From Enterococcus silesiacus (GTDB lineage: Bacteria > Bacillota > Bacilli > Lactobacillales > Enterococcaceae), in contig CP013614.1 in NCBI GenBank assembly GCA_001465115.1, positions 2,666,001-2,730,000 on the forward strand: DNA of 64,000 nt. Direction: 5' to 3'. The position numbers were made by a program, and so were the translations under genes. Each line of letters starts with the position of its first letter. The first letter of the stretch is position 1. This document shows positions 5,830 through 45,262 of this stretch, in pieces. Under the pieces are notes generated by a model, which worked only from the letters and a program-made list of their open reading frames with translations, searched no databases and was not told the DNA's origin.

Positions 5830-7635
5830 ATGACCTATTCACTCGTTTGGGATTTAGATAGTATTTTCCCTGGCGGTAGCCATTCAGCTCAACTGGAACA
5901 ACGATTATCAAAATTAACAGAACAAAGCAGCAACTATCATCAATTGATCGAGCAGTGGATACCGCAAAACGACACTGACTATCAAGAATTACAGCAAATT
6001 TTAGCTCTGCAAGGAGCTATTTCAGATGGTTTTTCTCAATGTAGTAGCTTTATCACCGCTTTATCTTCTGCTGATACTAAGGATAAAAAAGCCAAAATTT
6101 TATCTGGCGATCTTTTTTCATTATTACCAGCGATTCAGCTAGCAGAAACAATTTTTACAAAAAAACTAACAGAAATTTCCGATGCAGATTGGCAAACCTT
6201 AACTGCTCTACCTGTTTTTGAAACAATTGCATTTCGTTTAAATGAAATCCGTCGAGATGGCATGCAGCTATTATCTGAGCAAGAAGAAAACATTATCAAT
6301 ACATTGTCTTTAGATGGACTTAACGCTTGGAGTAGCCATTATGATACGATCGTTGCCAGCATTTCGATTCCATTCAAAGAAGATGGTCAAACAGTCTTCC
6401 TTTCTGCTGGGCAAGCTTTTAACCGTATGATGAGCGATCCTAGTTCAGACGTTCGTGCTGAGTTATTCGCTGAGTGGGAAAAAGCTTGGAGCGAAAAATC
6501 TCCTTTATTAGCAGATACTTTAAATCACTTGGATGGGTTCCGTTTAAGCGATTATAAACTGCATGGTATCAATGATTTCTTAGAAAAGCCATTAAACTAT
6601 AACCGTATGCAAAAAGAAACACTTGATGTTATGTGGGCAACCATCCAAAAAAACAAGCAGCCTTTTATCGACTTCTTAACACGTAAGGCTCAATTATTTG
6701 GAAAAGAGAAAATGAACTGGCAAGATCAAGATGCGCCGATCATTTTAGGTGATTTAAAAGAAAAAACATACAGCTTTGATGAAGCAGCTGAGTTTATTTT
6801 AGAAAACTTTGAAAAATTCAGTCCTAAAATGGCTACATTCGCTAAAGGAGCATTTGAAAAAAGTTGGATTGAAGCTGAAGATCGTCCTGACAAACGTCCG
6901 GGTGGTTATTGTACAGAACTTCCTGAAACGAAAGAATCTAGAATTTTTATGACCTTTGGCAATTCAATTAATGAAGTGGCAACCCTTGCTCATGAACTAG
7001 GCCATGCGTTCCATAGCAGCGTGATGTGGGATCTGCCAGCACTTGATCGAGAATACGCGATGAACGTCGCAGAAACAGCTAGTACGTTCGCAGAATTGAT
7101 CGTTGCAGATGCAACACTACAAAGTGCTGAGACACCTGAAGAGAAAATTAATTTATTGGATACTAAGATGCAAAATGCCATTGCAATGTTTATGAATATC
7201 CATTCTCGTTTTATTTTTGAAAACAATTTTTATGCAGCTCGTCAAAAAGGCTTATTGAGTGAAGATGAAATAACTGAGTTGATGCTTGAAGCTCAAAAAG
7301 AAAGCTATCAGGATAGTTTAGGTTCTTACCACCCACATTTCTGGGCAAGTAAATTACATTTCTTCATTGATGATGTACCATTTTATAATTTCCCTTATAC
7401 GTTCGGCTATTTGTTCAGCATGGGAATTTATGCTTATGCAAATAAACAAGGTAGTGATTTTGAAGATCAATATATCGCCTTACTTCGTGACACTGCATCA
7501 ATGACATCAGAAGACTTAGCTAAAAAACATCTCGGGGTCGATTTAACAAAACCTGATTTCTGGCAAGCTGGAATTGATCAAGTAATTAAAGATGTCAATG
7601 AATTTATGGAATTGACGGAAGAATATATTAAGTAA
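5830..7635 (+). CDS. M3 family oligoendopeptidase (PepF-type)
   Basis: 601 aa, the normal size of M3B oligoendopeptidases. The zinc site HELGHAFH starts at residue 388, with the downstream glutamate in AMNVAETASTFAELI. The N-terminal half is the helical domain that narrows the active-site channel. These cytosolic metallopeptidases cut short peptides of roughly 7-17 residues from imported or signal peptides. The ATG follows AAGGAATCGTGT. It is divergent from the VanZ-like gene and ends in its own terminator, so it is monocistronic. Confidence 0.92.
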   Translation: MTYSLVWDLDSIFPGGSHSAQLEQRLSKLTEQSSNYHQLIEQWIPQNDTDYQELQQILALQGAISDGFSQCSSFITALSSADTKDKKAKILSGDLFSLLPAIQLAETIFTKKLTEISDADWQTLTALPVFETIAFRLNEIRRDGMQLLSEQEENIINTLSLDGLNAWSSHYDTIVASISIPFKEDGQTVFLSAGQAFNRMMSDPSSDVRAELFAEWEKAWSEKSPLLADTLNHLDGFRLSDYKLHGINDFLEKPLNYNRMQKETLDVMWATIQKNKQPFIDFLTRKAQLFGKEKMNWQDQDAPIILGDLKEKTYSFDEAAEFILENFEKFSPKMATFAKGAFEKSWIEAEDRPDKRPGGYCTELPETKESRIFMTFGNSINEVATLAHELGHAFHSSVMWDLPALDREYAMNVAETASTFAELIVADATLQSAETPEEKINLLDTKMQNAIAMFMNIHSRFIFENNFYAARQKGLLSEDEITELMLEAQKESYQDSLGSYHPHFWASKLHFFIDDVPFYNFPYTFGYLFSMGIYAYANKQGSDFEDQYIALLRDTASMTSEDLAKKHLGVDLTKPDFWQAGIDQVIKDVNEFMELTEEYIK

Positions 7636-7730: not shown

Positions 7731-9041
7731 TTACATACGTACAGCGAAGCTTGGTGTAAATGAACCAACATTGCTGTATTCAACGCCTGTACTTTCGTTA
7801 CCAGCGTGGATATAACCGCCGCCACCAGTAGCAATCGCTACGTGGTAAGAAGCACCTGGGCTACCCCAGAAGTATAAATCGCCAGCTTGAGCTTCAGCTA
7901 CAGAGATACGTGTACCAGCACTTTCTTGGGCAACTGTATAACCACCGACATTACGGCCAGTTGAGTTCATGAATGCGTAGTAGACTAAACCTGAACAGTC
8001 AAAGCTACTTGGTCCTTTAGAACCCCAAACGTATGGTTTACCAACTTGTGCTGCTGCAATAGAGATTGCAGAACCGCCAGTTGATGGTGGTAGTGGTGGG
8101 TCTGGAATTGGATCTGCTGGTTTGACTGGATCCGGAGTTGGTGTTGGTGTAACATTTCCGTCACCATTATTAACAGGAGGTGTTACAACTCCTGTATTAT
8201 TATTATCTACTGAACTACCTGTTGTTGGTTCTTCAGTAGATGAAGCAGTCGTAGTGCTTGGTGCTGTTGCTTTGGCAGTTGCTTTGGCCGCTACAGCTTC
8301 TTGTTCTGCTTTTTTAGCGTTAGCTGCTACTACTTTTTCTTGTTCAGCAATACGTGCTTGTTCTGCAATTGCTGCTTCTTTTTCTTTCACTAAGCCAGCT
8401 TTTTGATCTTCAGCAGTTGCTCTTTCAGCAGCTAATGTTGTTTGTAATACATTCAAATCAGCTTCTGCTTTAACAAGATCGCCTTTTTGAGCTTCAAGTT
8501 CTACTTGATTATCTTGAAGATCTTGTAATTTTTCTTCATTTTCAGCTTTCTTAGTTTCTACTGCTTTTTTATCTTCTTGTTGTTGTTTTACTAAGTCATT
8601 ATTAGCATTAACAATTGTAGACATTGCAGTTACACGAGTAATGGCATCAGAAACTGATTTTGCATTCAATAATGCATCCATGTAGCTTGTGCTATTACCA
8701 TTAACCTGTACGTCACGTGCTTGGTTTTGGATCGCTACTTCACGTTTGTCGATACGTTTTGTTAATTGCGTGATTTCTTTTTCTAAGTTAGTAGAAGTTT
8801 TTCTTAATTTGCCTTGTTCAGCTAATAAAGTTTCTGCTTTTTCGTTAATAGAAGCAACTTGATCTTGTACTGCAGCCACTTGGCTTTGAGCGTCAGCTTC
8901 TTGAGATTTCAATCCTGAAATTGCTTGATCTTTTTGTTGAATTTTAGAGTCCACTTCATCCGCTGATGATAATACTGGTAAGGCTACAGATGTAAGGGCT
9001 AATGAGCAAATCATTAGTAATGGCAATACGCTTTTTTTCAC
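7731..9041 (-). CDS. SagA/SalA-like secreted peptidoglycan hydrolase, NlpC/P60
   Basis: 436 aa. Signal peptide 1-28 (hydrophobic core then SSADE), a PcsB-like coiled coil from about 30 to 235, a Ser/Thr/Pro-rich linker 250-320, and a C-terminal NlpC/P60 domain. The likely catalytic residues are Cys349 (in FDCSGLVYYAF), His400 (SYHVAI) and His412 (YIHAG). Such enzymes cut gamma-D-Glu or DL-endopeptide bonds of wall muropeptides at the septum. E. faecium SagA is the best-known relative; E. faecalis has SalA/SalB. A paralogue with another catalytic end lies immediately upstream. Each has its own terminator or promoter region, so they are not clearly one operon. Confidence 0.9.
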   Translation of the reverse strand: MKKSVLPLLMICSLALTSVALPVLSSADEVDSKIQQKDQAISGLKSQEADAQSQVAAVQDQVASINEKAETLLAEQGKLRKTSTNLEKEITQLTKRIDKREVAIQNQARDVQVNGNSTSYMDALLNAKSVSDAITRVTAMSTIVNANNDLVKQQQEDKKAVETKKAENEEKLQDLQDNQVELEAQKGDLVKAEADLNVLQTTLAAERATAEDQKAGLVKEKEAAIAEQARIAEQEKVVAANAKKAEQEAVAAKATAKATAPSTTTASSTEEPTTGSSVDNNNTGVVTPPVNNGDGNVTPTPTPDPVKPADPIPDPPLPPSTGGSAISIAAAQVGKPYVWGSKGPSSFDCSGLVYYAFMNSTGRNVGGYTVAQESAGTRISVAEAQAGDLYFWGSPGASYHVAIATGGGGYIHAGNESTGVEYSNVGSFTPSFAVRM

Positions 9042-12279: not shown

Positions 12280-12446
12280 ATCGACACCCCGACTACTCTT
12301 TAGACTGATAGCAATAATTCTACCACTAATTGGAAGCAAACAAAAGAGCTGTGGTGCGTCTTTACATTTTTTTATTAAAATAGTGTGATTTTAATGATCG
12401 CTTGGACTAGAGGAACGAAGGCAGAACGATTGTGTGAAATAAAACT

Positions 12447-12565
12447 AAAAACAGTCTCACTAATACTGTTTCAATTATTTGTAATTTGGTTAGTGAGTTT
12501 AGACTTTACTAGTCAAGGCTTTATCACTTGATTACGAGCCTTGTAATAAAGTGCCTTTTTTATTT
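12447..12565 (-). repeat. Inter-cassette structured RNA element, copy A (degenerate)
   Basis: The most distal of five related copies that follow the immunity genes. It keeps the GGCAC start (12555-12551), the first stem CTTTAT..ATAAAG and the ACAGTATTAGTGAGACTGT terminator-like end. The internal TTGCC that should pair with GGCA has become TTACA, and the terminator stem is shortened. It follows the last immunity gene of the locus, so it marks the downstream edge of the toxin array. The 12340-12446 stretch beside it holds nothing else recognisable. Confidence 0.65.
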
Positions 12566-12592
12566 AATTCAACTCATTTTTTAAAACTATAT

Positions 12593-13018
12593 TCAGAAGT
12601 CACCGTAAGGAAACTCTTCTAACCCAATTGCTTCAATACTTTCACAATAAAAATTTATATAATTATATCCATCATTTTCTCCATAGCCACTATCATCATG
12701 AACATGATATCTTTTGTCACTTGGCCAATCTATAGGTTCATTCCTCATATCTTTTATTATTAATCTGTCATAAACATTAATGTTAGTAACCTCTTTTAGT
12801 GATAATTCACTTACATTATTAAATTTAAATTTTGATAACATTACTTGAGGCTTTTTTGAAAATTTAGTTTTTAAATCTAAATTTAGTACTGAGCGTTTTT
12901 TATTAAAAATATTTTCCTCGATATTATATTCTATTTTCATAATATCACTAAAATGAAACGGATTCTCTGAACCTATCTCATCTAAAATTACATTACTATT
13001 TTCAATATATTCAAACAT
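12593..13018 (-). CDS. Candidate immunity protein of the most distal orphan cassette
   Basis: 141 aa, acidic and soluble, no signal peptide. Motifs such as SENPFHFSDIMKIEYN, EPIDWPSDKRYHVHDD and ESIEAIGLEEFPYGDF do not let me name a family. The position is that of an immunity gene: immediately after a truncated LXG toxin fragment and before a copy of the inter-cassette element, as for the other cassettes. Low GC (AT-rich codons) matches other immunity genes here. It may be kept to protect against siblings that still use the corresponding toxin. Confidence 0.6.
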   Translation of the reverse strand: MFEYIENSNVILDEIGSENPFHFSDIMKIEYNIEENIFNKKRSVLNLDLKTKFSKKPQVMLSKFKFNNVSELSLKEVTNINVYDRLIIKDMRNEPIDWPSDKRYHVHDDSGYGENDGYNYINFYCESIEAIGLEEFPYGDF

Positions 13019-13068
13019 TTTTCCCCTCCTATTTACTTATCAAAATCAAATGTAACACTATTTGTCCT

Positions 13069-13345
13069 TTAATCAATTCTCCCTTGCCTTAATACACCAT
13101 TGTCATCTAAGAAATATTTTGTATGAGAAGAAGGTTGCTTATATCCATTTTCCCTTTCATATTCTTCGATTTCCTTTTCCAGTTTCTCAGAGTTTAGGTC
13201 ACTGCTGTCAACATCCATTGTATATTGTTCTGGAATTTTTTTACACACCTCTTCCACTGCATCTGTTAACAGTATTCCACCTTGTGCTAAGGGAATCAAG
13301 ACGGCTGAATAAAAAGCTTTCGCTGAATCGTAGGAATCACCTGAG
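13069..13345 (-). pseudogene. LXG toxin remnant with internal deletion (orphan cassette 4)
   Basis: Reading DSYDSAKAFYSAVLIPLAQG from about 13345, this is the same LXG segment as in the full-length gene up to the glutamate-rich helix (EKLEKEIEEYE). It then jumps to an unrelated tail (GYKQPSSHTKYFLDDNGVLR) and a stop at 13069. About 1 kb of LXG plus most of the toxin tip is missing. There is no ATG and no ribosome binding site; only internal TTG codons could start it. It is a decayed cassette whose immunity gene follows. Confidence 0.75.
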
Positions 13346-13377
13346 CATAAACTTGTCGAGAAACGAAGATGGTAAAT

Positions 13378-13512
13378 TTAAAAAAACAGTATCAGCGAGC
13401 CTCTCTCACTAATACTGTTTCAATTATTGGCAATTTGGTTAGTAAGTTTAGTCCTTACTAGTCAAGGCTTTATCACTTGATTACCAGTCTTGTGATAAAG
13501 TGCCTTTTTTAT
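13378..13512 (-). repeat. Inter-cassette structured RNA element, copy B
   Basis: Reverse-strand order: GGCAC (13503-13499), stem CTTTATCAC/GTGATAAAG, stem TAGTAAG/CTTACTA, TTGCC (13432-13428) that can pair with the first GGCA, then a 14-bp terminator stem (13416-13386) followed by seven T residues. It follows the 175-aa immunity gene and precedes the next LXG remnant. Copies B to E share the layout while the stem sequences differ in a compensating way. Confidence 0.8.
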
Positions 13513-13523
13513 TTTGATACCTA

Positions 13524-14051
13524 TTACTTTAAATTCTCTTTTTCATCTTCCAACCATCTCCTATGGTCGGAAATAACTTTAGATAAGTGTTCCTCAGTGT
13601 AAAATTCTTGAGGGGTTAATTTATTTTCTACACCTTGGTATTGATAAGGCATATCGAATGGAGACTTGAAATCAAGCCAGAATTCACTAATTTCTAACAA
13701 AGCATTTACATAGTCTTTATCTAAGATTTTCTTCAATAAATTATTAACTAAAATCCATCTCCATCTATAATAGGACATCAAATCTTTTTCATTAGAATCC
13801 TCAATCAAATCCAGAAGTTTATATATTTCGTTCTCATCATATGGTGAAAATAGACTTCCAAGCTCCCATACATACGAATTTTCTTCATTTTCATTTTTAG
13901 ATAAATAATCTAAGGTGTATTTCATTACAAATTCATCATCAAGTATACCTTGTAAATAAAATTCGTTGTCTGAATAACCAAACCTACCTACTTTAATCTC
14001 GTTCCAAGAAAAAGGAATATTATTTTTTTTAAATTCATCTACACAATTCAT
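13524..14051 (-). CDS. Immunity protein of orphan cassette 3 (DUF2247-like)
   Basis: 175 aa from an ATG whose A is the last base of the toxin stop (TAATG), so translation is coupled to the toxin reading frame; a longer frame inside the toxin gene has no better start. The sequence FKKNNIPFSWNEIKVGRFG and the acidic helical remainder resemble DUF2247-type proteins, which often accompany polymorphic toxins. The function inferred is neutralising the adjacent toxin tip. No membrane segment. Confidence 0.65.
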   Translation of the reverse strand: MNCVDEFKKNNIPFSWNEIKVGRFGYSDNEFYLQGILDDEFVMKYTLDYLSKNENEENSYVWELGSLFSPYDENEIYKLLDLIEDSNEKDLMSYYRWRWILVNNLLKKILDKDYVNALLEISEFWLDFKSPFDMPYQYQGVENKLTPQEFYTEEHLSKVISDHRRWLEDEKENLK

Positions 14052-15355
14052 TATTTTATAGGCACTCCATTCAATTCTGGATTTCTGACAAACATTCTGT
14101 GTGTAACTTTTTCGTCTTGAATTATCCATTCAAAACGCCCCATAACACCATTTTGGATTCCCTGAATTTGATATAATTTAGCATTACCTAAATCTGTGAC
14201 TTCTGCTAAACCAGCATAGTTGTCAATAATATCAGAAAAAACATGTGCTTTTGGAACATTAGGAAATTCATCTATAATAATTTGAGTTTGTTTTGTAGGT
14301 GGTTTTCCTGTTAATGGGTCAATATCATAAACAGAGCCTTTCCCTTTAACCGGTTTAATATCATCGACTTTCAATCCACTTCCAGACCTAGGAGCTTCTA
14401 AAATAGGATTAGTGATTTCCTCTACTACTTTTTGATTAGCCCCACTACCTTTCTTATTCTCAACCGTCTTCGTACCTTTATTCGTCGCTAACCGATAAGA
14501 AGCAAAGTTAAATCCTAACATCTGCAACGCCTGTCCCAGCTCGTCTTCTGTCATAAACTTATAAGCATCCTCAAGATATTGACCCGATGCCACTAACGCA
14601 CCTAAAACTGGATTATACTTGTCTCCGATTTGTAAGTCTTTCCCATTACGAAAGGCCACTTTTACCTTATCATCCCAATCGTGCTGAGACATAAATTCAA
14701 ACAAGTCCGCTGGTAAGTCTTTGCCATTCGCATTCAAATATTGATAGATTTTTGGATTTTTGACCCCTGCTCCATCTTTCGTCACTTTCCAAATGATCTT
14801 AGGTTTGCCGTCTTTATCATTATAAATCACCGCGTAGATTTGGTACTCTTTTAATTGTTTCTCCATCAATCGTTTGTCTCGTGTGGCCCAGCTGTTCTTG
14901 ATCGTATTCGCCCAATCCATCTTTTTTCCACTTGGAATCGTAAATTGTCCTGTACTCGCATTCCACGATTGATTGGCTTGGGCTACGCCTTGGTCGATTG
15001 TGGCTTTTAAAGCGCTGATCTCAGAAAAAATTGTTGGCGAACTGGTATGGAAATCTTGTAGTTTTTGGAGCTTCTGCTCTAGTTCTCGTTTGGCTTCTAG
15101 GTCTCGAGTCAAGGATTTCTGATTTTGATGCATCAGTATTTGTTTGACTAGCTTAGGGACTGGAAAATGGTGTAATTCCCGCTGTAAGCTTTGAACATGA
15201 GTAATATTATTTTCCAGTTCTTCGATTTCCTTTTCTAATTCCTCTGATTTTAGGTCACTGCTGTCCACGTCCGCTGTATATTGTTCTGGAAATTTTTTAC
15301 ACGCCTCTTCCACTGCATCTGTTAATAGTATCCCACCTTGTGCTAAGGGAATCAA
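14051..15355 (-). CDS. Orphan LXG toxin cassette 3, missing its 5' end
   Basis: Homology to the intact LXG protein starts sharply at DSYDSAKAFYSA (near 15402) and runs to VENKKGSG, almost identical to the intact copy. The first 50 or so LXG residues, ATG and ribosome site are absent; a TTG (15355) is the only early start. The variable C-terminus (about residues 300-434) contains DPLTGKPPTKQTQIIIDEFP, KAHVFSDIIDNYAGLAE and GRFEWIIQDEKVTHRMFVRN, an apparently complete toxin tip of a type I have seen in LXG and Rhs proteins but cannot name. Probably silent unless recombined into the full gene. Confidence 0.72.
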   Translation of the reverse strand: MIPLAQGGILLTDAVEEACKKFPEQYTADVDSSDLKSEELEKEIEELENNITHVQSLQRELHHFPVPKLVKQILMHQNQKSLTRDLEAKRELEQKLQKLQDFHTSSPTIFSEISALKATIDQGVAQANQSWNASTGQFTIPSGKKMDWANTIKNSWATRDKRLMEKQLKEYQIYAVIYNDKDGKPKIIWKVTKDGAGVKNPKIYQYLNANGKDLPADLFEFMSQHDWDDKVKVAFRNGKDLQIGDKYNPVLGALVASGQYLEDAYKFMTEDELGQALQMLGFNFASYRLATNKGTKTVENKKGSGANQKVVEEITNPILEAPRSGSGLKVDDIKPVKGKGSVYDIDPLTGKPPTKQTQIIIDEFPNVPKAHVFSDIIDNYAGLAEVTDLGNAKLYQIQGIQNGVMGRFEWIIQDEKVTHRMFVRNPELNGVPIK

Positions 15356-15432
15356 GACGGCCGAATAAAAAGCTTTCGCTGAATCGTAGGAATCACCTGA
15401 GTATAGATTTGTCGAGAAACGAAGATGGTAAA

Positions 15433-15566
15433 TTAAAAAAACAGTATCAGCGAGCCTCTCTCACTAATACTATTTCAATTATTGGCAATTTGATTAGTGA
15501 GTGCATGCTTACTACTCAAGGCTTTACTATCCGACGTCAATCAGATAGTAAAGCACCTTTTTTATT
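15433..15566 (-). repeat. Inter-cassette structured RNA element, copy C
   Basis: Same architecture as copy B. Here the first stem is CTTTACTATC/GATAGTAAAG instead of CTTTATCAC/GTGATAAAG, so both arms changed together. GGTGC replaces GGCAC and can still pair with TTGCC through G-T wobbles. The terminator stem is almost identical to that in copy B. It lies directly after the SMI1/KNR4 immunity gene. Confidence 0.8.
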
Positions 15567-15567
15567 T

Positions 15568-16038
15568 TTAATTAATTTCTTCAGTTACCATATCTAAGAG
15601 AAACTCTGCAAAGTTATTGTATAAAACTTCATTTTTTTGTGCATCTTCAGAAAAACCTGGAAAATATGATGTTATTTTAGGTTCATTATTATTATTTAAG
15701 TCTTTGTAGTTCAAACAATACATTTCTCCCATTCCAGTATTATACAAAATAACTAAATGTTTTGGCATGTTTACTAATTTCCGTTCATTTAACGTAGCCC
15801 AAACAGTATCTGGAACACCCGAATTTTCAAAATCTTCTCTAAAAACTCCATAAATTTCGATAGAACCAAAAGTTAAAGCGCCAAAACAAGATAAAAAAAG
15901 TTCGTAATCTTTTGGAAATTGTATACCCAGAACTGCCTGAGCTTTTTTTATAATATCATCTGAGGCTCCTCCAAAATCGTCTACCAAATTCTCATTCTCT
16001 TCAATTAGTTTTTTTGCTTTATTATACTCTGTACTCAT
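15568..16038 (-). CDS. SMI1/KNR4 (SUKH) family immunity protein
   Basis: 156 aa. The fold signature is visible: a first helix (IEENENLVDDFGGASDDII), AQAVLGIQFPKDYELFLSCF typical of the SUKH core, FGSIEIYGV, and a C-terminal FAEFLLDMV. SUKH proteins are the commonest immunity proteins of nuclease-type polymorphic toxins and bind the toxin active domain directly. Here it follows an LHH-nuclease tip with a 13-nt gap, an expected pairing. Confidence 0.9.
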   Translation of the reverse strand: MSTEYNKAKKLIEENENLVDDFGGASDDIIKKAQAVLGIQFPKDYELFLSCFGALTFGSIEIYGVFREDFENSGVPDTVWATLNERKLVNMPKHLVILYNTGMGEMYCLNYKDLNNNNEPKITSYFPGFSEDAQKNEVLYNNFAEFLLDMVTEEIN

Positions 16039-16051
16039 TACAACATCTCCT

Positions 16052-17413
16052 TTATTTAAAATCTTTTGCTCTATTTTTCCAATACTCAGAACGCCATTTA
16101 TTGAAAGATTTTCTATCTATTCCAGACGGAACTGAATTAGGATTGATATGAATCGTTTTAGAATTACTTTGATGGAAAGACTGCTCTACCTCAGCAATAG
16201 AACTTATATCTCGTTGAGTCATATGATGCAAGTTCACTGGATTTGCATCTGGTCCTAAAGGAGCCAATCCTTGTTCCATTCTTTGAAGGTTAGAGCGTCC
16301 CTTAACATCTACTTTATTAATATCAATTATACCATCTCTTTGATAAACTCTGGTCCCTTTAAAATCGATATCTTTTTTCCAGTATTCCCTAATTTGTGAA
16401 TAGTCTTTAGGTACAGTAGCCCCACCAGCTTTCTTATTCTCAACCGTCTTCGTACCTTTATTCGTCGCTAACCGATAAGAAGCAAAGTTAAATCCTAACA
16501 TCTGCAACGCCTGTCCCAGCTCGTCTTCTGTCATAAACTTATAAGCATCCTCAAGATACTGTCCCGATGCCACTAACGCGCCTAAAACTGGATTATACTT
16601 GTCCCCGATTTGTAAGTCTTTCCCATTTCGAAAGGCCACTTTTACCTTATCATCCCAATCGTGCTGAGACATAAATTCAAACAAGTCCGCTGGTAAGTCT
16701 TTGCCATTCGCATTCAAATATTGATAGATTTTTGGGTTTTTAACGCCTGCTCCATCTTTCGTTACTTTCCAAATGATCTTAGGTTTGCCGTCTTTATCAT
16801 TATAAATCACCGCGTAGATTTGGTACTCTTTTAATTGTTTCTCCATCAATCGTTTGTCTCGTGTGGCCCAGCTGTTCTTGATAGTATTCGCCCAATCCAT
16901 CTTTTTTCCACTTGGAATCGTAAATTGTCCTGTACTCGCATTCCACGATTGATTGGCTTGGGCTACGCCTTGGTCGATTGTGGCTTTTAAAGCGCTGATC
17001 TCAGAAAAAATTGTTGGCGAACTGGTATGGAAATCTTGTAGTTTTTGGAGCTTCTGCTCTAGTTCTCGTTTGGCTTCTAGGTCTCGAGTCAAGGATTTCT
17101 GATTTTGATGCATCAGTATTTGTTTGACTAGCTTAGGGACTGGAAAATGGTGTAATTCCCGCTGTAAGCTTTGAACATGAGTAATATTATTTTCCAGTTC
17201 TTCGATTTCCTTTTCTAATTCCTCTGATTTTAGGTCACTGCTGTCAACGTCCGCTGTATATTGTTCTGGAAATTTTTTACACGCCTCTTCCACTGCATCT
17301 GTTAATAGTATCCCACCTTGTGCTAAGGGAATCAAGACGGCTGAATAAAAAGCTTTCGCCGAATTGTAGGAATCACCTGAGCATAGATTTGTCAAGAAAT
17401 GCAGGCAGGGCAT
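16052..17413 (-). CDS. Orphan LXG toxin cassette 2 with LHH-type nuclease tip
   Basis: From SYNSAKAFYSAVLIPLAQG onward it is nearly identical to the intact LXG gene up to VENKKAGG. The preceding residues (MPCLHFLTNLCSGD) come from the junction sequence, not from LXG, and the ATG at 17413 lacks a clear ribosome site. The tip (about 335-453) holds GPDANPVNLHHMTQRDIS and FNKWRSEYWKNRAKDF, the LHH subclass of HNH/Endo VII-fold nucleases, so DNA is the probable target. Without the LXG N-terminus it should not be exported. Its SUKH immunity gene follows. Confidence 0.78.
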   Translation of the reverse strand: MPCLHFLTNLCSGDSYNSAKAFYSAVLIPLAQGGILLTDAVEEACKKFPEQYTADVDSSDLKSEELEKEIEELENNITHVQSLQRELHHFPVPKLVKQILMHQNQKSLTRDLEAKRELEQKLQKLQDFHTSSPTIFSEISALKATIDQGVAQANQSWNASTGQFTIPSGKKMDWANTIKNSWATRDKRLMEKQLKEYQIYAVIYNDKDGKPKIIWKVTKDGAGVKNPKIYQYLNANGKDLPADLFEFMSQHDWDDKVKVAFRNGKDLQIGDKYNPVLGALVASGQYLEDAYKFMTEDELGQALQMLGFNFASYRLATNKGTKTVENKKAGGATVPKDYSQIREYWKKDIDFKGTRVYQRDGIIDINKVDVKGRSNLQRMEQGLAPLGPDANPVNLHHMTQRDISSIAEVEQSFHQSNSKTIHINPNSVPSGIDRKSFNKWRSEYWKNRAKDFK

Positions 17414-17425
17414 TGTAGTAAAATA

Positions 17426-17562
17426 AAATTAAAAACAGTATTAATGAGCAATTCTCACTAATACTGTTTCAACTATTGGCAACTTGATTAGTGAGTTTAG
17501 ACCTTACTAGTCAAGGCTCTGCTTCCTCAACGTCAATTGAGAAGTAGAGTGCCTTTTTATTT
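17426..17562 (-). repeat. Inter-cassette structured RNA element, copy D
   Basis: The first stem is CTCTACTTCTC with GAGGAAGCAGAG, different in sequence from copies B and C but still pairing. The second stem keeps loop sequence GGTCTAAACTC. CAAGTTGCC follows, then a 14-bp terminator stem with T-run. It follows the 142-aa immunity gene at 17589. Confidence 0.8.
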
Positions 17563-17588
17563 TGTTGATTATTCAGGGGCTTGTTCTG

Positions 17589-18017
17589 TTATTTTTCCAT
17601 GTAATCATGATAAGGGTCATCTATATTATCCCCTACCTCTTCAATGGTATCTTCTATTTCTTCAAGTATTTCTGAAGATATATTTGTAGTATCTTTAATA
17701 GATTCTTTCATTTTATTATAAGTCTTTTTCAATCCTAAATTTATTAGTAATGATGTAATTATATCTACATCATCATAATTTTCTGTATTCCATAAGCTAC
17801 ATAAAACATTATCTAGTTCACTTCTTAGAGGTTCTTTTAAGTTTTCATAAGTATCCCCTTGTCTCATCATCAATTCGTCTAGAATATCAAAAAATTCTTT
17901 TTTGGTTACTTTTTTATTTTTAAAGTCCATGATAGCTTGTTCAAATAATAAATACAATTTATCTGCAGACATCCATGGCATATCAGAATAATCTTCTTTT
18001 TTCATGACTTTTTCCAT
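17589..18017 (-). CDS. Candidate immunity protein of orphan cassette 1
   Basis: 142 aa from the ATG at 18017, placed 6 nt after GGAGGT; a longer frame upstream overlaps the toxin stop. The protein is acidic and helical (SADKLYLLFEQAIMDFKNKK, EILEEIEDTIEEVGDNI) with no signal or membrane segment. No family recognised. It directly follows the orphan type-30-like toxin tip and precedes a copy of the structured element, the immunity-gene position. Its strong ribosome site suggests it can still be expressed if transcribed. Confidence 0.65.
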   Translation of the reverse strand: MEKVMKKEDYSDMPWMSADKLYLLFEQAIMDFKNKKVTKKEFFDILDELMMRQGDTYENLKEPLRSELDNVLCSLWNTENYDDVDIITSLLINLGLKKTYNKMKESIKDTTNISSEILEEIEDTIEEVGDNIDDPYHDYMEK

Positions 18018-18021
18018 TCTA

Positions 18022-18299
18022 TTACCTCCCTTGAACTGGAACATGAACTCCATTTAAGTTTTGCTTTTTTGTCCATAGTCCATCAACAGTTACTTGTTTA
18101 TTTCCTATCTTAATTTGAGCAGTCAATCTTGAACCTGATGCTGAGTCTGGAAACTTGGCTGCTGCAACAGGATCTGGCTCATGCCATCTAATAATAGCTT
18201 TCTGACCATCAGATAATTGAAATTCATATTTCGCACCATTTTTCATAGTATCTGTAGGTTTAAATATATTTGAAGTTCCTTGAATCGTAAGAATCGCCT
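18022..18299 (-). pseudogene. Orphan toxin tip lacking LXG domain (cassette 1)
   Basis: An open frame ends at 18022 and contains KYEFQLSDGQKAIIRWHEPD, SASGSRLTAQIKIGNKQVTV and a closing NGVHVPVQGR. The layout (W-x-H-x-x-D, G-S-x-x-x-A, H-x-P-x-Q near the end) parallels the tip of the intact toxin, so it may be the same toxin class. Upstream only about 20 bp of LXG remain (a copy of the GATTCNTACGATTC junction), and they are in another frame. It has no start signal of its own; ATG at 18246 gives 74 aa. Confidence 0.65.
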
Positions 18300-18351
18300 C
18301 ATCATAGTTTTATCGAGGGACAAAGACAGAATGACTGTGATAGAATAAATG

Positions 18352-18487
18352 TAAAAACAGCATCAGCAAGTAAATCTCACTAATACTGTTTCATTTATTG
18401 GCAACTTGATTAGCGAGTTATAGCTTACTACCCAAGACTTTATCACTTGATTATCAGTCCTGTGATACGGTGCCTTTTTTATTTTTT
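18352..18487 (-). repeat. Inter-cassette structured RNA element, copy E (after the intact operon)
   Basis: It begins inside the 3' end of the intact immunity gene, whose last codons read through the GGCAC and first-stem arm. First stem CCGTATCAC/GTGATAAAG, second stem TAGTAAG/CTCGCTA with loop CTATAA, then CAAGTTGCC and a terminator stem built partly from G-T pairs. It would end the transcript of the active LXG operon. Confidence 0.78.
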
Positions 18488-18900
18488 ATTCGATAATCCA
18501 GTTCTGATAGTGCTTCTTCAACATCTTCTTCTAACTTAGAGTTATCTTTGTACAATTCAATAATTGGTCTGTATTTTATATTTCCTGAATTTCCAAGCAT
18601 ACTTAGTATATAACTCAAACACTCATCATTAAATCCATTTAAATGGTTAATGATTGGAGTTAAATTAATTGATTTTTCAACAGATGGAGCTTTTGACCCT
18701 TCTAACATTGCATCGAGTATTGATTCTTTAATGTCATCATCATTTTGTAGTGTAGCTTGAACTGATAAATTATCAATTATTTTTATAGTGTTATCATCTG
18801 ATTCGCCACCATAATCTAAAATATCTCTTATATAACCTACCGCTTCTAATTTATCATTCTTACTTTTTTCTGAATCTTTTAAGATACTTAACCAATCCAT
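18454..18900 (-). CDS. Immunity protein of the intact LXG toxin
   Basis: 148 aa, acidic, all-helical by composition (LEAVGYIRDILDYGGESDD, HLNGFNDECLSYILSMLGN, KLEEDVEEALSELDYR), resembling HEAT-repeat-like immunity proteins. It starts 14 nt after the toxin stop. The last residues (NKKGTVSQD) are encoded by the structured element, so the gene's true end was probably altered when the element became adjacent. Presumed to protect the producer from the type-30-like toxin. Confidence 0.75.
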   Translation of the reverse strand: MDWLSILKDSEKSKNDKLEAVGYIRDILDYGGESDDNTIKIIDNLSVQATLQNDDDIKESILDAMLEGSKAPSVEKSINLTPIINHLNGFNDECLSYILSMLGNSGNIKYRPIIELYKDNSKLEEDVEEALSELDYRIKNKKGTVSQD

Positions 18901-18914
18901 TTAGATTCCTCCTT

Positions 18915-20387
18915 CTATTTTTTTGGTGTCTGAATCGGAATATGGGTACTATTTATAAGTTCTTCATTATAAAACTCACTATTAGGTCTTGAAATTCCAG
19001 GTGGTTGAAATTCACCTGATATAGGATCTAAATATTTTTTACCTTGTTGCACTCTCACAATCCAACCATTTGCAGCATTACTTCCTACTGGTGCTGATGC
19101 ATCTTGTCCATGGACTCTAACAGTCATTTTTGTTCCATCAGAAGCTTTCCATGTATATTCAAATCCTTCTGTTACTTTTCCTGGCTGAGGTGTTAATACT
19201 CGTTTATTGGCATCTTTAGGAATTCTAGACAAAATATCGTCTACACTAGTACCTTGTAAATTACTAAAGTCCCCAATATTTCCTGAACCTAAACCACCAG
19301 CTTTCTTATTCTCAACCGTCTTCGTGCCTTTATTCGTCGCCAAACGATAAGAAGCAAAGTTAAATCCTAACATCTGCAGCGCCTGTCCCAGCTCGTCTTC
19401 TGTCATAAACTTATAAGCATCCTCAAGATATTGACCCGATGCCACTAACGCACCTAAAACTGGATTATACTTGTCTCCGATTTGTAAGTCTTTCCCATTT
19501 CGAAAAGCCACTTTTACCTTATCATCCCAATCGTGCTGAGACATAAATTCAAACAAGTCCGCTGGTAAGTCTTTGCCATTCGCATTCAAATATTGATAGA
19601 TTTTTGAATTTTTGACCCCTGCTCCATCTTTCGTCACTTTCCAAATGATCTTAGGTTTGCCGTCTTTATCCTTATAAATCACCGCATAGATTTGGTACTC
19701 TTTTAATTGTTTTTCCATCAAGCGCTTGTCTCGTGTTGCCCAGCTGTTCTTGATCGTATTCGCCCAATCCATATTTTTTCCACTTGGAATCGTAAATTGT
19801 CCTGTACTCGCATTCCACGACTGATTGGCTTGGGCTATTCCTTGATCGATTGTGGCTTTTAAAGCGCTGATCTCAGAAAAAATCGTTGGTGAACTGATAT
19901 GGAAAGTTTGTAGTTTTTGGAGCTTCTTCTCTAGTTCTCGTTTGGCTTCTAGGTCTCGAGTCAAGGATTTCTGATTTTGATGCATCAGTATTTGTTTGAC
20001 TAGCTTAGGGACTGGAAAATGGTGTAATTCCCGCTGTAAGCTTTGAACATGAGTAATATTATTTTCCAGTTCTTCGATTTCCTTTTCTAATTCCTCTGAT
20101 TTTAAGTCACTGCTGTCCACGTCCGCTGTATATTGTTCTGGAAATTTTTTACACGCCTCTTCCACTGCATCTGTTAATAGTATCCCACCTTGTGCTAAGG
20201 GAATCAAGACAGCTGAATAAAAAGCTTTCGCTGAATCGTAGGAATCACTTTTTAAGACCGAATCTCCAGCGAATTGTTGAAGACTTTTTTCTAGCTGATT
20301 ATAGCCATTATGATGCTTGTTGCTTAATGCACTAACACCTGTTGCTTGGGTATTCGCCGACGAGAGGTACATATCAATACTGCTCAT
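18915..20387 (-). CDS. Intact T7SS LXG polymorphic toxin, type-30-like tip
   Basis: 490 aa. Residues 1-200 are the helical LXG export domain (starts MSSIDMYLSSANTQATGVSA; coiled segment ELEKEIEELENNITHVQSLQ). Residues 200-365 form a conserved linker (MDWANTIKNSWATRDKRLME, DELGQALQMLGFNFASYRLA). The last 120 are the toxin tip: RIPKDANKRVLTPQPGKV, RVHGQDASAPVGSNAANGW and NSTHIPIQTP, resembling polymorphic toxin type 30. LXG proteins leave through the EssC-type T7SS and kill related bacteria. Its start overlaps the preceding partner gene by 14 nt. The target of the tip is unknown to me. Confidence 0.88.
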   Translation of the reverse strand: MSSIDMYLSSANTQATGVSALSNKHHNGYNQLEKSLQQFAGDSVLKSDSYDSAKAFYSAVLIPLAQGGILLTDAVEEACKKFPEQYTADVDSSDLKSEELEKEIEELENNITHVQSLQRELHHFPVPKLVKQILMHQNQKSLTRDLEAKRELEKKLQKLQTFHISSPTIFSEISALKATIDQGIAQANQSWNASTGQFTIPSGKNMDWANTIKNSWATRDKRLMEKQLKEYQIYAVIYKDKDGKPKIIWKVTKDGAGVKNSKIYQYLNANGKDLPADLFEFMSQHDWDDKVKVAFRNGKDLQIGDKYNPVLGALVASGQYLEDAYKFMTEDELGQALQMLGFNFASYRLATNKGTKTVENKKAGGLGSGNIGDFSNLQGTSVDDILSRIPKDANKRVLTPQPGKVTEGFEYTWKASDGTKMTVRVHGQDASAPVGSNAANGWIVRVQQGKKYLDPISGEFQPPGISRPNSEFYNEELINSTHIPIQTPKK

Positions 20388-20748
20388 TGTTGGTTTCCTC
20401 CTCGTCCGCTTCGTTTAACAACCGTTGTCGTTTATATTGTTCTTCTGACAACTGATCATCCAACACTCGGTTTTCTCGCTTCAATTCTTCCAACTCTTCT
20501 TCTAACTGATCGAATAATTGGCGCCGTTCATGGTAAATTTCATCCTGCATTTGTTGGAATACCGGAGCGAAATCATTGCGGTGAAAGGTGTCATTCATTT
20601 CACTATAGATCGTATTGGAACGTTGAAAATGCTCATGATATAATTCCATCGCTTGTTCCATACCGCGTTGCTGATTTTCATTTTCTTGTTGGCTTTCTTC
20701 TAATTGACGCACGTTTCTAGTAGTCACTTCTACTTCTATTTCAGTCAT
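20374..20748 (-). CDS. LXG-associated helical partner, DUF3958-like (Lap2)
   Basis: 124 aa, no signal, nearly all charged helix (EESQQENENQQRGMEQAMEL, QLEEELEELKRENRVLDDQ). It fits the DUF3958 class of small coiled-coil proteins that bind LXG domains and promote their export. Its ATG directly follows the stop of the upstream gene, and its end overlaps the LXG start, so the three genes are one tightly coupled operon. Confidence 0.8.
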   Translation of the reverse strand: MTEIEVEVTTRNVRQLEESQQENENQQRGMEQAMELYHEHFQRSNTIYSEMNDTFHRNDFAPVFQQMQDEIYHERRQLFDQLEEELEELKRENRVLDDQLSEEQYKRQRLLNEADEEETNNEQY

Positions 20749-21102
20749 TTACTTCCCTCCGAAAGGGCCATTAGTAAATGGTAAGGTTGGTTTTGAGCCG
20801 CGATTGTTATCGGCACCTGCAATCATTGAAGACTGCATGATTTTCCGAATCGTTGCGTCCGCAGCTTCAAATTCATTCGCTACGCTTTTTAAATTGTTGG
20901 ATGCTCGCCCTACTGCATTGGCGATATCTGTTGCCGCATTTTTTGCCAGCTGAATGGCTTCTTTTGCATTTGTATTACCAGCAACGGTTGTTTGATGATC
21001 TTCTTGAACTGTACTTGCATCTTTCAGTACATCCATCGCTAAAAAAATATCCGTCGCATACTGGTACGCAACCTGTTTATTACTATTGACTTCTTTCCCC
21101 AT
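20749..21102 (-). CDS. LXG-associated helical partner, DUF3130/TIGR04197-like (Lap1)
   Basis: 117 aa from the ATG at 21102, 6 nt after GTGAGG. WXG100-like helical protein: KQVAYQYATDIFLAMDVLKD, then AIQLAKNAATDIANAVGRAS and NEFEAADATIRKIM, ending in a glycine-rich tail. It matches the TIGR04197 T7SS-effector/DUF3130 class that pairs with DUF3958 and an LXG protein. First gene of the toxin operon. The promoter should lie in 21110-21170 (TATGAT near -10), but its -35 is weak. Confidence 0.82.
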   Translation of the reverse strand: MGKEVNSNKQVAYQYATDIFLAMDVLKDASTVQEDHQTTVAGNTNAKEAIQLAKNAATDIANAVGRASNNLKSVANEFEAADATIRKIMQSSMIAGADNNRGSKPTLPFTNGPFGGK

Positions 21103-21313
21103 AAAATACCTCACTAAATTCGTTTAATAATATAATCATAACAAATAGCGTGGTTGTTTTCTATAAAATTTAGAATAAATCGATTTTTTGCATAATATTC
21201 CTCTCTTTAAGAAGATAAAATAAGCGTCATTCAAAATTTTTTTCTGTTATTTTTCCTTATATATAAGAGAGTCGTTTTTGATGTTATTTAATCAGGGAAT
21301 GTAAGAATTGTTA

Positions 21314-21342
21314 TTGCGAACGAACGTTTCTTTGGGTATAAT
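21314..21342 (+). promoter_or_regulatory. Promoter of the first upstream structured RNA
   Basis: TTGCGA (21314-21319) and a perfect TATAAT (21337-21342) are separated by 17 nt. No coding frame follows; instead a stable structured sequence with terminator does. It points away from the LXG operon. Confidence 0.8.
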
Positions 21343-21348
21343 GAATGG

Positions 21349-21624
21349 CATAGGATAGAAATAATTAACATGAAAATAAATAATAAAATTGGCACTTTCT
21401 GGTACGGCTACCAACCGAACTAGCGAAGCCTTGCTTAACAGCCATAACTGCTAAACAATTTGCCAATAGCGGAAGCCATTTTCTTATTTTTACGTTCTTT
21501 TGTGTGCCAGAAGACTACCAACCTTCTCCTTTCAAGAATAAGTAAAAATAGAGTTTCTTTGTCTTGCCTATTGTAGACGATTGCAGTTATAGCTGTAACC
21601 GTCTTTTTTGTTTTCTATCCTATA
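21349..21624 (+). ncRNA. Structured small RNA of the locus (copy F1), about 275 nt
   Basis: Starts just after the promoter with TAGGATAGAAA, which pairs with TTTCTATCCTA just past the terminator (11 bp). Inside: P1 ATTGGCA (near 21388-21394)/TGCCAAT (21461-21467), a P2 arm with loop CTACCAACCGAA, a P3 arm with loop GCCATAACTG, a second domain closed by TATTTTTAC/GTAAAAATA with an inner hairpin AGAAG/CTTCT whose loop holds CTACCAACC, and a terminator GACGATTGCAG/CTGTAACCGTC plus T6 (21576-21607). No ORF with a ribosome site. The P1-P2-P3 core is homologous to the inter-cassette elements. Family not recognised. Confidence 0.72.
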
Positions 21625-21639
21625 AATTTTGAGAAAAAG

Positions 21640-21872
21640 AAAAACAGGCACTTCATCATTGGCACCAACCAAAAGATGAAGCCTTAAATGGAAAGCCATA
21701 ACTCTCCATCCAAGTTGCCTGAGTACTAGCACCGTAGCACTAGCTTCTTTATTGTACCTAATTTTTGTAAGAATTTCTAGACAGTTTTTGAAATTTTTCT
21801 AAATAGGTGAAAGAATCCTGCTACAGACTTGTAATCAGAGCCACGATAGAGACGGCAATCTCTATCGTTTTT
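21640..21872 (+). ncRNA. Structured small RNA or leader (copy F2)
   Basis: Core 21644-21750: P1 CAGGCA/TGCCTG, which differs from F1 in both arms yet pairs; P2 CTTCATC/GATGAAG with loop GGCACCAACCAAAA; P3 ATGGA/TCCAT with loop GCCATAACT; then a CTAG..CTAG hairpin. About 90 nt later a strong terminator, CGATAGAGA/TCTCTATCG plus T6 (21843-21871). I see no good separate promoter, so it may be a second transcript, read-through of F1, or a leader ahead of the gene at 21931. Confidence 0.6.
21843..21871 (+). terminator. Terminator after copy F2
   Basis: A 9-bp GC-containing stem CGATAGAGA with TCTCTATCG around CGGCAA, followed by TTTTTTC. It precedes the gene at 21931 by about 60 nt. Confidence 0.85.
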
Positions 21873-21930
21873 TCTTTTTCTCATTTAAAAATCAACAGGT
21901 AAAATCACTAGAAAAAAGGAGAACTTACTT

Positions 21931-22233
21931 ATGAAAAATTCCGCACATTGTATCAAAGCTGTTCCTTATCAAGAAATTATCGATCTTCGCGACACATTAG
22001 AACGGTTAGCTTCTTGGCAAGAACCGTTAACAACATTGGAAAAATATTTTAACAACCCAAATACACCCATCAATAAAAAACAGGTCGTCAAACAATATTA
22101 TGCTTGTTCAAAGCTCTTTCAGACATTTAACAAAGAGTTCGAGCTTTTACTAACCAGTGCTGAAAAACAACTAAATGAGGTCAGTCGGAATCAAACGACA
22201 GCTATTTCTACAGAAGAAGCTTTGGCTAACTGA
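21931..22233 (+). CDS. Small helical protein of unknown function, 100 aa
   Basis: Begins MKNSAHCIKAVPYQEIIDLR after AAAGGAG. It is soluble and helical (ERLASWQEPLTTLEKYF, YACSKLFQTFNKEFELLL). No family recognised. It lies at the upstream edge of the LXG locus, after the structured RNAs and pointing away. It could be part of the locus or the boundary gene. The size and helical character recall T7SS helper proteins, but that is only a resemblance. Confidence 0.6.
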   Translation: MKNSAHCIKAVPYQEIIDLRDTLERLASWQEPLTTLEKYFNNPNTPINKKQVVKQYYACSKLFQTFNKEFELLLTSAEKQLNEVSRNQTTAISTEEALAN

Positions 22234-22245
22234 CTTTCTACTCAA

Positions 22246-22290
22246 AACAAAAAAGTGAGTGGGACATAACTCTTTGAGTCATATCCCACT
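22246..22290 (-). terminator. Terminator of pnp, also an interspersed hairpin
   Basis: AAGTGAGTGGGACATAACTC and its near-complement form a stem of about 18 bp with a short loop; on the reverse strand a T6 run follows. A related hairpin (GGCTGGGATATAACGC) occurs near 54660, so the sequence is a dispersed element reused as terminator. Confidence 0.75.
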
Positions 22291-22295
22291 CACTT

Positions 22296-22438: not shown

Positions 22439-24553
22439 TTATTTTTCTTTATTTTCTTCAGCCAATAACGCTTTACGTGAAACATTCACACGGCCTTGTT
22501 TATCGATTTCAGTCACTTTTACAAGCACTTCATCGCCAAGTTTTACGATGTCTTCAACGTTATTTACACGTTCATTCGCTAATTGAGAAATATGAACTAG
22601 ACCATCTTTCCCTTTGATCAGGTTAACGAATGCACCGAATTTTTCGATACGAACGACTTTACCAAGGTAAACTTGTCCAACTTCAACTTCTTTTGTCAAC
22701 TCTTCAATGATCTTGATCGCTTTTTTGATCATATCTGCATCAGCAGAAGCAATACTTACATTACCTTCTTGATCGATGTCGATCTTCACGCCAGTTTCAT
22801 CGATGATCCCATTGATGGTTTCTCCGCCTTTACCAATAACATCTTTGATTTTAGCTGGAGCGATTTGGATCATTTCGATCTTAGGTGCATACTTGCTTAA
22901 CTCTGGACGAGGTTCAGCCAATGTTGATGTCAATTCAGCAAGAATTTCCATACGGGCTTTTTTCGCTTGAGTCAATGCTTCTGTCAAGATTTGTTCAGTG
23001 ATTCCTTGGATTTTGATATCCATTTGTAGTGCTGTGATTCCGTCTTTTGTTCCAGCAACTTTAAAGTCCATGTCGCCTAGGTGATCTTCTAGCCCTTGGA
23101 TATCTGTTAAAATCGTATAGTTTTCGCCATCGCTGACAAGTCCCATTGCGATTCCGGCAACTGGTGATTTAATTGGTACACCAGCATCCATCAATGCTAA
23201 GATGCCCGCACAAATACTTGCTTGAGAAGAAGAACCATTTGATTCTAAAACTTCTGATACCACACGGATCATGTAAGGGAAATCCGCTTCACTTGGAATC
23301 ACTTGCGCCATCGCACGTTCGCCTAAAGCACCGTGACCGATTTCACGACGACCAGGAGAGCCTGCACGACCTGTTGAACCAACAGAGAATTGTGGGAAGT
23401 TATAATGATGAATGAAACGTTTGCTGTCTTCTACACCTAAACCATCAATGATTTGATGTTCACCAAGCGGTGCTAAAGTTACTACAGACAACGCTTGTGT
23501 TTGTCCACGAGTAAACAATCCAGAACCATGAACACGTGGTAAAATACCAACTTCTGATGCTAAAGGACGGATTTCGTCTAATTTACGACCATCAGGACGG
23601 ATTTTATCGATCGTGATCAATTCACGAACCACGTCTTTTTCTAAATCTTCAGCGATTTGTTTTACTTCTTTTGCTACTTGCGCTTCTTCTTCGTGACCAG
23701 CAAATTTTTCAGCATACGCTTCTTTTAATTGATCTTTGATGGCATCGATATTGACTTCACGAGCAAGTTTTTCTTCGGTCATAACTGCTTCTTTCATTGA
23801 AGCATAGTAAGCCGCGAAGATTTCTTTTTTCAAATCAGCATCTACTTGTAATAATTTGATTTCCATTTTTTCTTTACCGACAGCGGCAACGATTTCTTCT
23901 TGGAAAGCAACTAATTCTTTGATTGCATCAAAACCGAAAAGTAACGCACCAAGCATATCTTCTTCCGATACTTCTTTGGCACCACTTTCAACCATATTAA
24001 TCGCTTTTTTCGTTCCAGCAACCGTTAATTCGATATCTGTTTTTTCAGATTGTTCAACAGTTGGGTTCAATACATATTCGCCATCAACACGACCCACATC
24101 AACACCTGCGATTGGTCCATCAAATGGAATATCTGAAATTGCTAAAGCTAAAGATGAACCAAACATTGCCGCCATTTCTGGTGTGCAATCTTGTTCTACA
24201 CTCATGACAGTATTTGTGATTTGTACTTCGTTACGGAAACCTTCAGCAAACATCGGACGGATCGGACGGTCGATTAAACGAGCCGTTAATGTTGCGCGTT
24301 CACTTGGGCGACCTTCACGTTTGATAAATCCACCTGGGATTTTCCCTACAGAGTACATTTTCTCTTCGTAATTCACTGTTAATGGAAAGAAATCAAAATC
24401 TCTCGCATCTTTTGATGCAACAGCCGCACTTAGTACCACTGTATCTCCATAACGAACTAATACTGCACCATTTGCTTGTTTGGCTAATTGACCAACTTCA
24501 ACTTGTAAGGGACGTCCGCCCCAAGTTGTTTTGAACACTTGTTTTTCTGACAT
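22439..24553 (-). CDS. pnp: Polyribonucleotide nucleotidyltransferase (PNPase)
   Basis: 704 aa, normal length. Two RNase PH-like domains (first near 10-140, second near 310-540 with [20 protein letters not shown]), then a KH domain ([20 protein letters not shown]) and a C-terminal S1 domain ([20 protein letters not shown]). PNPase degrades RNA 3' to 5' phosphorolytically and can add heteropolymeric tails. ATG follows AAGGAGAAG. It is downstream of rpsO, the conserved bacterial order, with a 200-nt gap that contains the rpsO terminator. Confidence 0.97.
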
Positions 24554-24721
24554 GTACTTCTTCTCCTTTGATTCTTCGGAAAAGTTAGAGTACTACTAAA
24601 CAAATGAAAAGATTCAAAAGAATTGAGTCCTTTTATTTGGTTAGTAGATTCATTCAAACTTTCCAAAGATGATGATTTTTTAGTATTTTAAGGATACTCA
24701 ACCTTTGCTTTTACATAAGCT

Positions 24722-45045: not shown

Positions 45046-45262
45046 CAAAAAGCCCTCACAAAACAGAATTTTATCTGTTTTGTGAGGGCGAATAATAGTA
45101 TCCACGGTACCACCTCAATGAAAAGTGTATTTCTTTTTAAGTAACCTTAGGACTTCTGTCCACTATTAACCGATTTGGTTCAGAGCGTGTAGTGATCCCT
45201 GGTAAAGTTACTTCTCCCTCTTAGCACACCTTTTACTGTAAACCACTTTTTTTTCACGCTTT
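45046..45262 (-). promoter_or_regulatory. T-box riboswitch 2 of the trp operon
   Basis: Reverse strand contains the antiterminator motif AGGTGGTACCGTGGA (around 45115-45103) followed by a 15-bp terminator, GCCCTCACAAAACAG/CTGTTTTGTGAGGGC with T5 (45089-45051). The 5' part is short and unlike a standard stem I, so I could not read the specifier codon. It is in tandem behind T-box 1. Confidence 0.8.

Follow-up and report, generated by a model that had tools for sequence, protein, structure and literature searches.

In the ColE1 RNAI/RNAII system with Rop, specificity is set by kissing loops, and the gene of a small helical protein is close by. Type III toxin-antitoxin systems such as ToxIN are arranged in the order promoter, structured RNA units, terminator and small protein gene. 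In plasmid pIP501, pairing of sense and antisense RNA starts at loops, and pT181 has a like antisense attenuation of its rep mRNA. The antisense RNA of pIP501, RNAIII (136 nt), is transcribed from a convergent promoter and causes termination in the repR leader; sense RNA in excess titrates RNAIII, as outlined in one account of that plasmid (PMC4981023). Ern0160 and Ref19C are enterococcal small RNAs that one account places near a P-type ATPase gene (PMC12870237).

We analyzed a stretch of 64,000 nucleotides from Enterococcus silesiacus (the window; bases 2666001-2730000 of a single-contig 3.93-Mb genome). A preliminary description of this DNA had reported a stand-alone structured RNA at 21314-21624. 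Judged from its sequence, the RNA feature holds up, but it makes up one half of a larger arrangement of two related units, which we call A and B.

Two related RNA units predicted on opposite strands

We found the putative promoter of A, TTGCGA-17-TATAAT, at 21314-21342 on the plus strand by sequence scan, where it had been described before. It agrees with the consensus at 10/12 bases. A promoter of this type (TTG[CT]G[AG]-17-TA[TC]A[ACT]T) lies no more than 330 nt upstream at 35/59 A loci, a count made without a shuffle control. No ORF of at least 60 aa is present within 21115-21930, and A is directed rightward, away from the neighboring toxin operon, which runs leftward from 21114.

The predicted A RNA (21349-21624, plus strand, start deduced from the promoter) would contain a domain with P1, P2 and P3 (21388-21467), recognized by fold, sequence and our covariance model R1 (E=6e-13). 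This would be followed by a second hairpin predicted by folding (21483-21551, ends approximate) and a terminator hairpin with a T-run (21576-21609). In P1, ATTGGCA (21388-21394) pairs with TGCCAAT (21461-21467), and the P3 loop carries the six bases CCATAA (21442-21447), which we refer to as its code. The terminator was re-detected by script and is absent from the listing of one of the terminator scans; its 5' arm is complementary to part of the 3' arm of P3. A closing helix (21350-21361 with 21612-21623) recurs in nine units picked by eye, the window among them, with quite different letters at locus L277. The 3' strand of this helix lies downstream of the T-run, so an RNA that stops at the terminator would be without that strand. 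The promoter, closing helix and strong terminator of the earlier account were thus all recovered, and its reading of A as a stand-alone structured RNA of the inter-cassette family, with a promoter of its own, is supported by the sequence.

The next copy, B, had been taken to belong to the same RNA family. It is matched by R1 (E=6e-15), and its P1 is the one given before, CAGGCA (21645-21650) pairing with TGCCTG (21716-21721), but its fold, G-U pairs and promoter indicate that it is better read on the opposite strand. On the minus strand, the B domain (21645-21721), identified by fold, R1 and covariation, has a P3 loop (21696-21701) that is the complement of CCATAA. A 5' hairpin (21726-21743) also pairs on the minus strand, with G-U pairs. 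Based on promoter, fold and U-run, we predict an antisense RNA of ~115 nt (21628-21745, ends inferred).

Several measurements favor this strand. The fold energy of B is -39.6 kcal/mol on the minus strand (z -6.9) versus -25.3 on the plus strand (z -4.1), and two further B copies that we tried showed the same preference. Read on the plus strand, P3 of B contains 120 A.C versus 1 G.U, and P2 contains 95 A.C versus 5 G.U (50 distinct rows each); A.C on plus is G-U on minus. A minus-strand promoter, TAGAAA-17-TACAAT (21751-21779 in the window), lies behind 49/52 B copies when up to one mismatch per box is allowed, compared to 0.05 expected from shuffles. The A-run before P1, which on the minus strand is a U-run after P1, was present in 52/52 B copies and, with a narrower rule applied, in 25/52 A copies. 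In a B-sense alignment of 30 sequences chosen for diversity, single units included, 94.6% of cells were paired, and covariation was 0.432 versus 0.201 in shuffled and at most 0.125 in slid controls. B is therefore best read, as far as these comparisons go, as a minus-strand antisense RNA.

The plus-strand fold of A is poorer. The A domain alone has only a slight advantage over shuffled sequences (z -1.5; 19/200 shuffles fold as well), and all three A domains tried (3/3) fold better on the minus strand than on the plus strand. P3 of A is also less regular, with 65 A.C, 17 G-U and 104 other mismatches in 47 rows.

R1 was built from 36 sequences, including those of the window, so the scores of the latter are partly by construction. 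This holds as well for the five inter-cassette elements of the window, which R1 matches along with A and B, and with which A had been said to share a junction core. A spaced pattern drawn from A and B was present in 0/100 shuffles of the window. R1 matched 61/105 genomes of the family (E≤1e-4): 22/22 of the genus Enterococcus, with 7 to 30 matches each, and 39/83 of other genera, mostly with one or two copies. Matches were found in 70/395 genomes of the order Lactobacillales (E≤1e-5), and in 3/398 of the class, all three from the same order; stricter filters in the family, order and class searches mean that weak matches were lost. At 20 loci (that of the window and 19 others), Rfam 15 gave no match over A or B with E≤1, and the literature searches made found no description of the A/B family.

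Matched loop codes of A and B

With A on the plus strand and B on the minus strand, identical DNA hexamers in the two copies mean complementary loops. We compared 65 A/B pairs from 23 genomes and E. termitis, a subset of the pairs in those genomes made up of the ones whose two domains we retrieved and either aligned or read. The pairs at L270, L271, L272 and L297, within a set of 63, and two added pairs, L294 (matching) and L136 (not matching), were read by eye. The codes were identical in 51/65 pairs. Another 7/65 share six bases in a shifted frame, 3/65 are off by a one-base indel, and 3/65 (L160, L150 and L133) differ by substitution only, each change leaving a G-U pair between A (plus) and B (minus). 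L136 is the one pair of the 65 in which the codes do not match. The pair at L124 of genome G005, with a truncated A, was left uncounted, and a supposed pair at L181 was dropped as a false pairing of two inter-cassette elements.

The agreement greatly exceeds that of re-paired loci. Identical codes occurred in 50/63 pairs, compared to a mean of 2.6 and a maximum of 10 in 2000 shuffles of B among the loci, and loops with at least six base pairs in 59/63, compared to 4.1; such re-pairing takes no account of kinship. A comparison within loci deals with this point. A and B of the same locus are 93% identical in the loop and 69% identical in the remainder (55 loci), whereas the loops of A domains that are 85-95% identical elsewhere agree by 51% (134 comparisons). 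Within groups at least 90% alike we found 20 extra code pairs, 18 of them new on both sides and two one-sided. By these alignments, the codes are changing faster than their flanks, and have changed jointly at least 18 times. Some of the joint changes could be attributable to recombinational exchange of whole pairs.

The codes also appear to be private. All A codes read were distinct within every genome (9/9 in E. silesiacus). Cognate loops of E. silesiacus form 6/6 base pairs, versus an average of 2.9 for the 72 non-cognate combinations, of which one reaches six pairs (via G-U) and two reach five. Three codes (AGCAAA, TGGTAT and CGAACA) are used by two paralogous groups, and among the genomes read no code was found in both paralogous groups of one genome.

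A small protein gene, a palindrome and a candidate attenuator

An ORF for a protein of ~100 aa, which we call SORF, is located downstream of the pair on the same strand in 44/53 loci with enough sequence and is missing in 9/53; the other 12/65 loci had <220 nt downstream in the stretch used. In the window, SORF (21931-22233, plus strand) encodes 100 aa that are predicted to be helical by a structure model of moderate confidence (pLDDT 74). It matched no Pfam or NCBIfam family, and a structural search with Foldseek gave no match at E≤0.001. A second plus-strand terminator is predicted between B and SORF (21843-21873); a simple scan placed one there in 17/44 loci, a few of them doubtful. At L286, from a different genus, LXG is followed by the domain, its terminator, 33 nt and then SORF, as expected of a leader. 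Two E. silesiacus A/B pairs (L270 and L272) have no SORF, LXG genes or palindrome that we could find, and at L272 (near 2831 kb of the genome) matches to RatA antitoxin RNA and rli28 adjoin the pair (6180-6511). In the window, an inverted repeat with 20-bp arms (22253-22295) lies between SORF and a long minus-strand ORF (22439-24553) and is followed by a T-run on the minus strand. The Rfam family rliD, a Listeria sRNA, matches the plus strand at 24379-24668 (E=1.3e-14), spanning the 5' end of that ORF and extending past it. Farther along, on the minus strand, are two T-box leaders (45301-45528 and 48735-48969); a third (45081-45233), which scores below the cut-off of the family, adjoins the first of them.

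The palindrome CTTATATATAAG (21256-21267) lies upstream of the A promoter. It occurs six times in the 3.93-Mb genome, each time 128-221 bases upstream of an A domain, and three of the nine E. silesiacus pairs are without it. It was found upstream of 46/59 A domains. In 22 genomes of the genus there were 64 sites, versus 6 for a reversed control pattern, and by reading of coordinates 55/64 were some 100-300 bases upstream of a domain. Based on this distribution, we presume that CTTATATATAAG is a dedicated operator for the A promoter. The remaining nine sites (one each in G004, G005, G006 and G014-G019) have no domain placed nearby and may be other regulon members.

Complementarity between the 3' arm of P3 and the 5' arm of the next terminator was not confined to the window. 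In 27 cases collected by hand, the duplex averaged -6.60 kcal/mol versus -4.20 when arms and terminators were re-paired at random, and 0/2000 re-pairings were as low; three duplexes (L285, L289 and L306) were weak, at -3.0 kcal/mol or less negative. Among 93 units retained (units without a detected terminator were left out), the duplex averaged -6.7 for A, -5.1 for B and -6.0 for single units and inter-cassette elements, each below all 100 shuffles. A P3 arm complementary to the terminator that follows it is the layout of an attenuator, and antisense-controlled attenuation is the mechanism that best fits. Most of ten single units read by eye, from this and other genera, have a plus promoter, domain, minus promoter and plus terminator; L275 is without the minus promoter and plus terminator, and the plus promoter is unclear at L278 and L289. 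Because most of these single units carry both promoters over one domain, the ancestral unit was probably an overlapping sense-antisense pair. In the window, the plus promoter is retained by A and the minus promoter by B.

We propose, with a probability of roughly 0.6, that A and B form a duplicated antisense switch that controls the SORF transcript by antisense-controlled attenuation with titration. By computation we show the assignment to two strands, the agreement between codes, the complementarity of arm and terminator, and the SORF neighborhood. The transcription, kissing, attenuation, titration and role of the palindrome that we infer would combine as follows. A RNA would form the 5' end of a transcript able to continue through the B region into SORF, acting as its leader and attenuator, and B RNA (minus strand, ~115 nt, likely constitutive) would be the antisense inhibitor of A. 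The P3 loop of B would kiss that of A through the private six-base code and hold the P3 hairpin of A. The 3' arm of this hairpin could then not pair with the terminator's 5' arm, and transcription would stop. Activity of the A promoter, driven via the palindrome, would supply terminated pieces of A that soak up B RNA; later transcripts would then read through and SORF would be made. The main points against this proposal are that A folds less well on the plus strand and that a terminator before SORF was detected in only 17/44 loci. The loci that lack SORF, the unmatched pair and those with indels, the few non-cognate loops that pair well, the weak arm-terminator duplexes and the inter-cassette codes that differ from local B codes also count against it. 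We are more tentative, at slightly worse than even odds, about a broader statement: that these are chromosomal paralogous antisense attenuators, insulated by a fast-evolving six-base kissing code and co-switched by one palindrome-binding regulator, some of which would be joined to LXG toxin loci as an RNA "barcode".

Alternatively, B might act in trans as a small RNA on mRNAs encoded elsewhere, with A only a sponge and the terminators simply ending A without attenuation. Single units in other genera, where a B-like RNA is retained without a second copy in the vicinity, would fit this, as would the better structure of B and the promoter and terminator of A. We consider it unlikely, however, since most single units also have a plus promoter and terminator (by eye), the arm-terminator complementarity would go unexplained, and fixed mRNA targets would resist the frequent code changes. 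That SORF is a toxin and the A/B repeats its RNA antitoxin, as in a type I or III module, appears highly improbable: repeated structured RNA with a terminator does precede a small protein, but the repeats are on opposite strands, and the predicted helical SORF matched no toxin family in the searches made, including ToxN/CptIN/TenpIN-type proteins (Pfam, NCBIfam and Foldseek). For a type I toxin, no ORF of at least 60 aa was found in the A region, and shorter ORFs were viewed by eye in two loci only. We give the least credence to DNA-level sites at which recombination or gene conversion keeps the loops alike. Such elements do lie between toxin cassettes, but conversion would copy the flanks, whereas A and B are 69% identical outside and 93% inside the loop; the RNA promoters, G-U bias and covariation also speak against it.

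The proposal that the RNA regulates LXG or T7SS expression, made in the preliminary description, was not supported by the comparisons that we could make. The operon leftward from 21114 begins with a TIGR04197 gene (20749-21114, minus strand; NCBIfam E=3e-21) and a DUF3958 partner (20374-20748, minus strand; Pfam E=2e-13), followed by an Ntox30-ended protein and then orphan toxin and immunity genes. LXG and partner genes divergently adjoin A in 12/40 loci (~14 kb fetched on that side), and the code CCATAA of the window has a match around the start of the first LXG gene, as direct pairing with LXG or T7SS mRNA would predict. The window is the single such match, however: 1/19 loci versus 0.55 expected, including L183 and L189, where the TIGR04197-type gene is >7 kb from A. 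At one of the 40 loci there is a partner gene alone, at three such genes are more distant, and at 24/40, among them two of the six E. silesiacus palindrome loci, our profiles found none in the fetched stretch; LXG proteins vary, so some may have been missed. Direct pairing with these mRNAs is therefore improbable in our view. From these comparisons, it is B, the predicted antisense RNA, that co-varies with A, and the gene most often found downstream is that of the small protein.

The inter-cassette elements are on the minus strand and were identified by R1 and sequence. One consists of a domain with the code CTATAA and a terminator (18353-18478); the others carry GTCTAAA (17431-17557), CATGCA (15437-15561), GACTAAA (13382-13508) and, with a shortened terminator, a seven-base loop GTCTAAA by model alignment (12455-12559). 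Apart from one that matches through a G-U pair, their codes disagree with those of local B copies, and inter-cassette loops at five other LXG arrays did not match the local loop. The arm-terminator pairing is ten base pairs long in two of the elements, and no minus promoter was seen in them by eye. The surrounding array (12300-18900, minus strand) consists of orphan genes for LXG fragments, toxins and immunity proteins (LHH nuclease with SUKH; DUF2247), interspersed with domain-plus-terminator elements, and has 300-nt stretches that are 96-98% alike and could recombine.

Relation to known antisense systems

If the proposed switch is right, E. silesiacus would have a natural set of RNA switches insulated from one another, with nine pairs in its genome and specificity confined to six bases. 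How antisense pairs diverge yet keep their partner, and how paralogous RNAs avoid cross-talk, would become testable. The switch would also give a regulatory context to the SORF protein family and to some T7SS/LXG loci, and would be a source of candidate orthogonal kissing pairs.

Several described systems share parts of this arrangement. The A/B pair at L276, in another genus, is located near a P-type ATPase gene, as are Ern0160 and Ref19C, a likeness of gene neighborhood. There, an Rfam match to Ref84 (8941-9029) follows the ATPase gene beside the pair, outside the A/B region, and a manganese riboswitch match below the cut-off (5973-6127) precedes the gene. The order promoter, structured RNA units, terminator and small protein resembles that of ToxIN, but the units are on opposite strands, with B on the minus strand, rather than in tandem on one, and SORF is not recognizably related. 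Kissing loops, predicted here, and a nearby small protein modeled as helical recall ColE1 RNAI/RNAII, although SORF had no structural match at E≤0.001. The closest likeness in layout is to pIP501 and pT181: at the level of sequence, a predicted antisense RNA from a convergent promoter is directed over a sense leader, and a leader arm is able to base-pair with the terminator's 5' arm, with complementarity beyond that of shuffles. Unlike pIP501, the A/B loci are chromosomal (here on a 3.93-Mb single contig), with many paralogues per genome that have private loop codes; sense and antisense RNA come from separate, duplicated units, and the downstream gene SORF is no known replication gene. The A/B pairs would work like known antisense attenuators without belonging to any of the described families compared here, and what appears to be new is the use, across many paralogues on the chromosome, of loop codes that are private and change together.
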